NCBI GenBank assembly: GCA_016869975.1
Contig: VGCZ01000029.1
Span: 1-60,482 of the forward strand
DNA: 60,482 bases
Reading direction: 5' to 3'
From: Alphaproteobacteria bacterium
Lineage (GTDB): Bacteria > Pseudomonadota > Alphaproteobacteria > Reyranellales > Reyranellaceae
Under the pieces are notes generated by a model. It saw only the letters and a program-made list of their open reading frames with translations. It was not told where the DNA came from and made no database searches. The position numbers and the translations under genes are program-made. How positions within the stretch are numbered: the first letter of the stretch is position 1; each line of letters starts with the position of its first letter. Shown in pieces: positions 58,097-60,433 of this stretch.

Positions 58097-59203
58097 TCAT
58101 GCCCGGCGCAACCGTGCGGGATCGAGGGGCCGTAGGCGACCGGGCGCGAAGGGCGCCAAGTCGACGTTGCGTGCCGCGCCGTCGAGGATCAACTCGGCCA
58201 TCGCCTCGCCGGTCGCCGGCGCGTTGAGCATGCCCCAGACGCTGTGGCCGGTCGCGACGTAGACACCGTTCGCGCCAGGCACCGCGCCGATCAGCGGCAA
58301 GCCATCGTCCGTAACGGGTCGGAAGCAGGCCTGGCGCGCCACGATCGGCATCGCGGCCAGCGCCGGCGCGATATCCCTGACCATCGCCTCGAGCCGCGCA
58401 TGCGCGCCCTCGTCGGGTGCGACGTCGGCGGGATCGACAGGCAGGGAGCCCGCGGAGGAGATCGCGCAGACCCAGGTCGTACCATCGGCGCGCACGAACA
58501 CCTCGGGCGTCAGCACCTCGCCGCTGGCTTCGCGGTACTCGAGGAACAGCGCCTCCGGCGCGATGCTCGGTCCGCTGTCGAAGACGATGCTATGGCCCTT
58601 GTAGCCATACACCGCCGGCAGCCTCAGCCACAGCGAGGCCAGGATCGACCACGGTCCCATGGCGATCACGACAGCGTCGCCCTCCACGACATCGCCGGTG
58701 TCGAGCGTCACACCAGCGAGGGCGCCCTTGGCGTCGTGCGCCAATCCTGCGACCGCGCCCTCTCGCAACGTCGCGCCAAGCGCTTCCGCGGCGCGTACCA
58801 GTCCGGTGGTGAAGGCGCGTGGCTCGATGGTGGCCGTGCTGTGCGGCGAGCCGATTTGGCTGGTCAGGGTGACCTTGCCCGATAGCCACGGCCGTTCGCC
58901 GGGAGCGCGCGCGATTTCACCCGCGGCGGCGTGGCCGGCATAGGTCGCCAGAGGTTGATAGCTCCAGAGATTGTCGAGCGCGGCGGCGAGGTCGCCGTGC
59001 AGGCCGAAGCTGCGGCGCGCCAATTGATCGAGGTCGCTGCCGCGGCACCAGTCGCGGGCCAGGAAGGCGCCCGACTTGCCGGAGGCCGAGCCAGCGACGG
59101 CGTGACGCTCGATCACGATGGGTCGCGCGCCGCGCTTGGCGACGTAGTAGGCGAGCGCGGCGCCGACGACCCCGGCGCCGCAGATGACGATTCGCTTGGC
59201 CAG
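58097..59203 (-). CDS. D-amino-acid oxidase family FAD oxidoreductase, non-canonical CTG start
   Basis: 368 aa if it starts at the CTG at 59203. The FAD fingerprint IVICGAGVVGAALAYYVAKR (residues 5-24) comes before any ATG, GTG or TTG in the frame; the first ordinary start is GTG 59116, which would delete it. The CTG lies immediately after the ilvE TAG, in the same frame. The downstream protein is typical: SASGKSGAFLARDWCRGSDL, ARQACFRPVTDDGLPLIGAV and NGVYVATGHSVWGMLNAPAT. Likely an amino-acid or sarcosine-type dehydrogenase, coupled to the aminotransferase. Confidence 0.82.
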   Translation of the reverse strand: MAKRIVICGAGVVGAALAYYVAKRGARPIVIERHAVAGSASGKSGAFLARDWCRGSDLDQLARRSFGLHGDLAAALDNLWSYQPLATYAGHAAAGEIARAPGERPWLSGKVTLTSQIGSPHSTATIEPRAFTTGLVRAAEALGATLREGAVAGLAHDAKGALAGVTLDTGDVVEGDAVVIAMGPWSILASLWLRLPAVYGYKGHSIVFDSGPSIAPEALFLEYREASGEVLTPEVFVRADGTTWVCAISSAGSLPVDPADVAPDEGAHARLEAMVRDIAPALAAMPIVARQACFRPVTDDGLPLIGAVPGANGVYVATGHSVWGMLNAPATGEAMAELILDGAARNVDLAPFAPGRLRPLDPARLRRA

Positions 59204-60298
59204 CTAGAACACCTTGTGCACCCAGCCGTGCGTGTCGGCGGCGCGGCAGCGCTGGATGTCGATCAGGGCGGCCTTGAGCTTCTCGGTCTGCGCCGCCGCC
59301 TGGCCGTTGCCGATGATGAAGTCGCCGTCCTTCGACTTCACGGTGCCGATGGGCGTCAGCACGGCGGCGGTGCCGCAGGCGAAGGACTCGCGCACGCGGC
59401 CCGAGGCGGCGTCCTTGCGCCACTGGTCGAGCGAGTAGGGCTCTTCGCGGGTCTTGATACCCATGTCCTTCGCCACCGAGATGATCGAGGCGCGGGTGAT
59501 GCCCTCGAGGATCGTGCCGCTGGTCGGCGGCGTCAGCAGCGAGCCGTCGTCGAGGATGAAGAAGACGTTCATGCCGCCGAGCTCTTCGATCCACTTCTTC
59601 TCGACGGCGTCGAGGAACACGACCTGCTCGCAGCCGTGCTTGTAGGCTTCCATCTGCGCCGTGAGGCTGGCGGCGTAGTTGCCGCCGCATTTGGCGGCGC
59701 CGGTGCCGCCGGGCGCGGCGCGGGTGAAATCCTGCGAGACCCAGACCGAGACGGCGCTGTCCTTGGACTTGAAGTAGGAGCCGACCGGCGAGGCGATAAC
59801 CATGTAGAGGTATTCGGCCGACGGCTTGACGCCGAGGAACACCTCGTTGGCGAACATGAAGGGCCGCAGATAAAGGCTGCCGTCGCCATCGGGAATCCAG
59901 TCGCGGTCGACCTTGACCAGCTGGTTGAGCGACTCGACGAAGACGTCCTCGGGCAGCTTCGGCATGGCCAGCCGCTCGGCCGAACGCTGGAAACGCCGCG
60001 CGTTCTCCAGCGGGCGGAACATCACCGCGCCGCCCTCTTTGGTGCGGTAGGCCTTCAGCCCCTCGAAGATCTCCTGGCTGTAGTGCAGCACGGCCGAGGC
60101 CGGGTCCATCTGGATCGGGCCGCGCGGGCCGATCGTGGCGTCGTGCCAGCCTTTGCCCTCGGTGTAGCGGATGGTGACCATGTGGTCGCTGAAGACTCGG
60201 CCGAATCCCGGGTCCTTCAGGATGGCGGCCCGCTGGTCCGGCGGTGTGGCCGAGGGGTGGGGCAGGCGCTTGAATTCGACAGACGACGTCTTGGACAT
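59204..60298 (-). CDS. ilvE: Branched-chain amino acid aminotransferase
   Basis: 364 aa, fold-type IV PLP enzyme of the BCAT2/mitochondrial-like group. Starts at ATG 60298 (MSKTSSVEFKRLP). PLP lysine K203 in GTGAAKCGGNYAASL; EIFEGLKAYR at about 76-85; SLYLRPFMFANEVFLGVKPS; GTILEGITRASIISVAKDMG. Catalyses the last step of Val/Leu/Ile synthesis or the first step of their breakdown. Its TAG directly abuts the flavoprotein frame. Confidence 0.95.
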   Translation of the reverse strand: MSKTSSVEFKRLPHPSATPPDQRAAILKDPGFGRVFSDHMVTIRYTEGKGWHDATIGPRGPIQMDPASAVLHYSQEIFEGLKAYRTKEGGAVMFRPLENARRFQRSAERLAMPKLPEDVFVESLNQLVKVDRDWIPDGDGSLYLRPFMFANEVFLGVKPSAEYLYMVIASPVGSYFKSKDSAVSVWVSQDFTRAAPGGTGAAKCGGNYAASLTAQMEAYKHGCEQVVFLDAVEKKWIEELGGMNVFFILDDGSLLTPPTSGTILEGITRASIISVAKDMGIKTREEPYSLDQWRKDAASGRVRESFACGTAAVLTPIGTVKSKDGDFIIGNGQAAAQTEKLKAALIDIQRCRAADTHGWVHKVF

Positions 60299-60433
60299 GG
60301 GTTTCCCGCAGTTTTGCCCCGCTTGGATGGACAACCCTGGGCGTCGCGTCAAGCCCGTGCGATGTCCGGTTTGGGTCGCGCGCCGGCCTCTTCTGAGCGA
60401 TAATAGCGATCCCGCATCGTTGGCCGACATTCC

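Follow-up and report, generated by a model that had tools for sequence, protein, structure and literature searches.

A CTG codon abutting the ilvE stop codon as the candidate start of a flavoenzyme gene in a member of the Reyranellaceae

How is a gene translated when its reading frame opens directly behind the stop codon of another gene and offers no ATG, GTG or TTG where its protein should begin? The question is raised by a 60,482-nucleotide stretch of DNA (the window; contig VGCZ01000029.1 of assembly GCA_016869975.1) from an alphaproteobacterium of the Reyranellaceae. Near its end, on the minus strand, ilvE is followed without a gap by a gene for an oxidoreductase dependent on flavin adenine dinucleotide (FAD). 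A preliminary description, made from the letters of the window, had placed the ilvE TAG at 59206-59204 and an in-phase CTG at 59203, and these coordinates are borne out by the sequence. It had offered two ways out, either CTG as the initiator, perhaps with terminating ribosomes restarting, or some read-through of the TAG to give an aminotransferase-oxidase fusion. On balance, and with some reserve, we favor a form of the first, in which ribosomes that terminate on ilvE would restart at the CUG after loss of the intervening DNA, the promoter and the ordinary start. The CTG junction itself is real and unusual in its start-codon usage, and a plausible course of evolution can be given for it; it is a variant of known mechanisms and not a new system.

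In the assembly of this genome (G000; its same-genus relatives, or congeners, are G001, G002 and G003), the junction is read as TAGCTGGCC. The 3′ end of ilvE runs ...GTG CAC AAG GTG TTC TAG, and the TAG is followed, gapless, by CTG GCC AAG CGA ATC GTC ATC TGC GGC GCC GGG GTC GTC GGC. The frame from the CTG remains open for 368 codons, to a TGA at 58097, and is in phase with ilvE. No in-frame ATG, GTG or TTG lies between CTG 59203 and GTG 59116 (residue 30) in G000, which agrees with the earlier claim that no ordinary start precedes the FAD fingerprint; strictly, this holds for G000 only. The upstream product has 364 residues if it starts at ATG 60298, with a second in-frame ATG further out at 60430. 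It is a class IV branched-chain aminotransferase, scoring 508.8 bits against NCBIfam NF009897 (cut-off 307) and 407.8 against TIGR01123 (cut-off 250.05). The features are collected in Table 1.

Table 1. Features of the ilvE-oxidoreductase junction (positions in the window)
Feature	Position	Strand	Remarks
ilvE, branched-chain amino acid aminotransferase, upstream gene (P0002)	59204..60298	-	364 aa, stop TAG
AAGGTG in the ilvE C-terminal region, Shine-Dalgarno-like	59210..59215	-	AAGG 8 nt before CTG; little better than chance
TAG, ilvE stop, in phase with the downstream frame	59204..59206	-	Sequence and junction comparison
CTG, proposed initiation codon, directly 3′ of the ilvE stop	59201..59203	-	Same CTG GCC in G003 (L002/L134)
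FAD-dependent oxidoreductase, DAO family (P0001)	58097..59203	-	368 codons from CTG plus TGA; PF01266
FAD-binding strand-helix-strand, residues 4-32, with G9-A10-G11-V12-V13-G14	59108..59194	-	Complete only if the start is at or upstream of CTG
GTG, first ordinary in-frame start triplet, residue 30, within the second strand	59114..59116	-	Unlikely start

The nature of the downstream protein is what makes the position of its start matter. Its assignment to the D-amino-acid-oxidase family, already made in the preliminary description, is upheld by a match to the Pfam DAO profile PF01266 (E 2e-46, 159.6 bits against a gathering threshold of 27.9), in which residues 4-338 cover profile positions 1-353 of 353. 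Members of this family carry at their N terminus a GxGxxG strand-helix-strand unit with an acidic residue at its end. Residue conservation and predicted structure both indicate this unit here: all 89 distinct tblastn matches have G9, G11 and G14, and 88 have E32, and an AlphaFold2 model, built from a seven-sequence alignment and moderate overall (mean predicted local distance difference test [pLDDT] score, 67.9), places strands 1 and 2 at residues 4-8 and 27-32, with helix A between them at 12-23. Taken in blocks of ten, residues 1-30 have pLDDT values of 86, 86 and 94, and the first 29 codons align with the orthologue family beyond chance. In the Foldseek comparison, the nearest solved folds belong to an opine dehydrogenase (7fgp) and to glycine oxidases (4ysh and 3if9), and the top of the phmmer list consists mostly of glycine oxidases. 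The protein resembles these flavoenzymes, together with 6pxs, in its Pfam family and in its full FAD fingerprint. It differs from them in that the ten best Foldseek rows reach only 21-25% identity, with a template-modeling (TM) score of about 0.6 and a root mean square deviation of 8-10 Å for this moderate model, and in that it misses the equivalog cut-off of the glycine oxidase ThiO model TIGR02352 (84.4 bits against 250.8). It is probably, judging from these models, an FAD enzyme of the glycine-oxidase/opine-dehydrogenase fold that oxidizes some amino acid or secondary amine.

Do relatives have an ordinary start where this genome has CTG? Some match to the oxidoreductase was present in 36 of 41 whole genomes, many of them distant paralogues, and 49 of 75 family genomes had a match at E <= 1e-60 (own genome included in both counts). 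The family survey gave loci for the first 30 of the 50 matches listed, so family orthologues are sampled in part; the scan of GTDB contigs covered the best 80 of 249 relatives. Starting from 133 and later from 158 loci, we kept the 5′ ends of those at which the match extended to the N terminus, and with identical ends dropped, both sets gave 87 distinct ends. An in-frame ATG or GTG lies between −18 and +6 nt of the CTG-aligned codon in 85 of them. The two exceptions, G000 with no ordinary start and G003 with an ATG at −33 only, are also the only two in which the gene was seen to abut ilvE. The alignment with relatives that had been suggested as a check has therefore lent weight to initiation at CTG, with CTG GCC placed behind an identical ilvE end in G003 and G000 alike: the junction is CACAAGGTGTTC TAG CTG GCC AAG CGA in G000 and CACAAGGTGTTC TAG C CTG GCC AGG CGC in G003. 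The two proteins are 83% identical, and orthologues elsewhere are 52-83% identical to the oxidoreductase of G000. Since CTG GCC and the frame behind it are kept while the spacing to ilvE differs by one base, initiation at or near the CTG is favored over a fusion.

The other two congeners suggest what the locus may have looked like before. In G002, ilvE lies 0.94 kb upstream and the oxidoreductase starts ATG AGC CGG ACC AAG CGC; in G001, ilvE lies 9.6 kb upstream and the start is GTG AGC AAA CGC. These two share an upstream stretch, GGTCTGGCACCG...GGCCTGACACAGT, that is promoter-like and ends 6 nt before the start. The intervening DNA, the promoter-like element and the ordinary start are all missing in G000 and G003. 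Outside the genus, the genes keep no such company: ilvE was found in all 14 genomes where it was sought, near the oxidoreductase in the four genus members only. In ten non-genus relatives, most of them drafts, separate contigs carry the two genes, except in G022, where 0.43 Mb lies between them. Besides G000 and G003, the genes are non-adjacent in the 12 other genomes with both located, and among the 158 loci surveyed, only those of G000, G002 and G003 show ilvE as a neighbor of the oxidoreductase. Because the genes are apart in the ten non-genus relatives, the pairing looks, from these sequences, like a local event in this genus. Outside the genus, it gives no support to a metabolic or functional link between the two enzymes, whose activities, transamination and amino-acid oxidation, had been called biochemically related.

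The promoter-like stretch of G001 and G002 (L135:7942-7986 and L136:8650-8695) contains a -10-like CACAGT ending 6 nt before the start codon. A loose search without a shuffle control picked up similar boxes immediately before the start of 23 of 44 hand-listed orthologues. The position of these boxes suggests that the ancestral oxidoreductase transcript may have been leaderless or had a very short leader.

We imagine that the DNA between the two genes (0.94 and 9.6 kb in two congeners) was lost together with the promoter-like element and the ordinary start, so that the oxidoreductase would have become the second cistron of the ilvE transcript. Ribosomes finishing ilvE at the TAG would then keep hold of the mRNA and begin again at the adjoining CUG, perhaps with help from the AAGG 8 nt ahead of it, and the putative output would be a full-length FAD enzyme in low or moderate amount. 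The CTG may itself be the old start, changed from GTG at the same position, or an old third codon adopted as a start; it aligns without a gap with the GTG start of G001, and the second alternative would correspond to an arrangement such as the ATG AGC CGG GCC of L112.

Published work on coupled genes makes such a restart plausible. In the parts of the reports used here, termination-reinitiation falls very strongly with distance (PMC10666635), a single C is all that lies between the two genes of a tightly coupled E. coli reporter (PMC2268962), and removal of the upstream Shine-Dalgarno sequence reduced reinitiation in four of five E. coli pairs (PMC6728339). The distance from stop to start, on the same strand, is 0 nt in G000 and 1 nt in G003, the latter being the layout of the PMC2268962 reporter, and reinitiation is plausible here because both distances fall in the efficient range. 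Like those pairs, the genes are co-directional and lie at the distances expected of coupled genes, with a Shine-Dalgarno-like stretch in the upstream gene; unlike them, the downstream start is CTG instead of ATG, GTG or TTG, the ribosome-binding match is weak, and the coupling is deduced from the arrangement. From the rare CUG-initiated bacterial genes in the cited part of PMC11497404, which it resembles in having no ordinary start in G000 and homology beginning at the CTG, our case differs in that its CTG comes immediately after another gene's stop codon and is known from sequence. Reinitiation evidence in PMC4648390, as far as that source was covered, was set aside, the system being eukaryotic. 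No natural stop-CUG reinitiation pair was found in the portions covered of the literature on bacterial CTG/CUG starts, reinitiation and coupling, which is not proof of absence in print, and a search for Reyranella together with start codons returned nothing. Since CUG alone is a poor start, coupling by terminating ribosomes would be the most economical route to useful expression here.

Several observations weigh against this account. CUG makes up 0.024% of bacterial starts and has 0.86% of the efficiency of AUG, according to the relevant part of PMC11497404; CTG was not effective as a start in mycobacterial reporters (PMC4633059, in the part cited); and for Caulobacter dnaA, the portion of PMC8443254 drawn upon describes a CUG complex that formed in vitro and was unused in vivo. 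The AAGG/AGGTG duplex before the CTG is worth −3.9 kcal/mol, which 30% of 3000 random 20-mers of the strand equal, and a comparable 4-mer stands 4-10 nt before 82 of 1118 minus-strand CTG triplets. By duplex energy and 4-mer counts, then, no strong Shine-Dalgarno sequence was found before the CTG. In G003, furthermore, the open frame reaches back to an ATG within ilvE, 33 nt or 11 codons before the CTG. This ATG lacks a ribosome-binding match, at +0.4 kcal/mol where the CTG has −3.9. Owing to it, G003, to judge by its sequence, is not a clean second case of a CTG start: no other in-frame start would keep the protein whole in G000, and this is not strictly true of G003.

The history of the junction adds to these difficulties. 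In the oxidoreductase tree, G000 groups with G001 (support 91), which lacks the junction; in the ilvE tree, the place of G000 is unresolved, beside G002 with a support of 50. We compared five constrained trees. Both trees with G000 and G003 as sisters were rejected by the approximately unbiased (AU) test, with p values of 0.008 and 0.004 for ilvE and 0.026 and 0.003 for the oxidoreductase; under the Shimodaira-Hasegawa (SH) test, one of the two is not rejected for the oxidoreductase (0.104). Grouping G000 with G001 was not rejected, and neither was the placing of G001 and G003 as sisters (AU 0.11 and 0.083). Use of rpoB as a species-tree marker failed, the family being found in two of the four genus genomes. 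G000 and G001 also share downstream neighbors: in a blastn search with the window end, the 55.1-56.7 kb and 56.8-58.0 kb stretches match the G001 region; in G003, the final kilobase of the 55.1-56.7 kb stretch sits elsewhere. Given the rejection of the G000-G003 sister trees and the absence of the junction from G001, where ilvE and the oxidoreductase are separated by about 9.6 kb of other DNA and by a decayed second N-terminal copy, the sequences indicate that the junction probably arose twice, or arose once and was later broken again in G001. The near-identical junctions of G000 and G003 hint at one shared deletion, as does the penultimate sense codon of ilvE, which is GTG in both and GTC in G001 and G002, but the AU test speaks against it for both genes; we leave the number of events open.

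Two further features of translation were looked at. RNA structure at the junction of G000 is not special (z +0.26; 117 of 200 shuffles as good). The G003 junction (L134:8871-8945) can form a hairpin of CGATGCGC and GCGCATCG around the ilvE stop, at −37.6 kcal/mol (z −2.08; 8 of 200 shuffles as good), that is not shared with G000. The initiator-type match of G000 (L159:1472-1548, on G000:C64), checked as a tRNA, is tRNA-Met(CAT); an altered initiator anticodon was sought with a pattern that required CAT, so other anticodons could not match. In the four genus genomes, all eight matches to the initiator pattern have the same letters, AGG/CCT, in the anticodon stem, where the E. coli initiator has GGG/CCC; of these, the one from G000 was checked as a tRNA. 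A reversed control pattern gave one match, in G002.

The oxidoreductase of G001 (L136:7524-8650) has a frameshift near codon 147 that leaves two overlapping frames, from either decay or an assembly error. The decayed N-terminal fragment of this genome (L136:12836-13100) has 46 of 90 residues identical and a GVVG motif like that of G000, and its DNA identity to each of the four copies is much the same (72-74%).

What else could explain the locus? One answer, unlikely though to be taken seriously, is that the gene has lost its start and is heading toward a pseudogene, its frame still intact but barely translated since the promoter and start disappeared. This would suit the weakness of CUG (PMC11497404, in the part cited), and the frameshift and decayed fragment of G001 mark the oxidoreductase locus as unstable in the genus. 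The ratio of nonsynonymous to synonymous substitution rates (dN/dS) in codons 2-29 is 0.34-0.42 in pairs with G000 and 0.15-0.21 in the others, from small counts of 10-20 changes, and G000 has in these codons three unique amino-acid changes and two silent ones. A recent loss would fit as well, the junction in G000 being of uncertain date. Over the whole gene, however, the values are ordinary: pairwise dN/dS (Nei-Gojobori) is 0.167 for G000-G003 and 0.169 for G000-G001, the three-taxon branch values are 0.167 each for G000, G001 and G003, and no stop interrupts the 368 codons. The unique changes of G000 gave no sign of relaxed selection over its first 29 codons when set against the 9 amino-acid and 10 silent changes in the rest (Fisher p = 1.0; five changes only), and each of the three new residues is seen elsewhere in the family. 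The dN/dS of the oxidoreductase thus appears ordinary, with no clear sign of decay, but it says little about life after the junction formed, because the junction may be young in G000.

A start at the CTG could also be made by free 30S subunits, recruited by the AAGG within ilvE independently of ilvE translation. We regard this as quite improbable. The sequence that would serve it, 8 nt before the CTG and pairing at −3.9 kcal/mol, has its equal in 30% of random 20-mers, and CUG reaches about 1% of AUG (PMC11497404, in the part cited).

Read-through of the TAG, the second proposal of the preliminary description, would yield an IlvE-oxidoreductase fusion of 733 residues; the earlier figure of about 730 was correct arithmetic (364 + 1 + 368). 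The frames are indeed in phase across a single TAG in G000. The extra C of G003, the only other genome seen with abutting genes, shifts the phase (TAG C CTG), so that read-through there would give an unrelated peptide, and 85 of the 87 orthologue 5′ ends have an ordinary start of their own. We found no conserved device and rejected read-through as a conserved design; as an explanation for G000, it is very unlikely. Still less should be expected of a sequencing or assembly error that conceals an ordinary start. Both assemblies are drafts (96 contigs for G000 and, rounded, 20 for G003) and the 60,482-base contig of G000 ends 1.3 kb away from the junction, but both of them, with proteins 83% identical to each other, share CTG GCC behind a common ilvE end. 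Had one base been lost from G000, restoring it, and with it the phase of G003, would uncover no ATG, GTG or TTG in the 20 codons back to a TGA. The least probable of all is initiation at GTG 59116, the first ordinary start triplet and the one reported by an ATG/GTG/TTG open reading frame list, since the 339-residue protein would lack residues 1-29 (strand 1 with the GxGxxG loop, then helix A and the beginning of strand 2), almost all of the dinucleotide-binding unit of residues 4-32, and would start behind a weaker Shine-Dalgarno match (−1.7 against −3.9 kcal/mol for the CTG).

Restart of ilvE-terminating ribosomes at the CUG therefore stays our preferred account. One can go a step further and suppose that a gene behind ilvE survived because terminating ribosomes accept an adjacent CUG far more readily than free subunits do; we offer this as a tentative idea and hold it rather doubtful. 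If it is true, reinitiation relaxes the start-codon requirement, and gene finders restricted to ATG, GTG and TTG miss starts of this kind at gene junctions. At this locus, if the gene is translated as proposed, they would truncate the protein by 29 residues, including the FAD-binding motif. With such translation, TAG-CTG and TAG-C-CTG would be two related, naturally occurring junctions at which CUG is needed for a whole conserved enzyme, and the tolerance of reinitiating ribosomes for starts that de novo initiation rejects would become directly testable. The locus would then also illustrate how a gene deprived of its start and promoter can persist as part of an operon.

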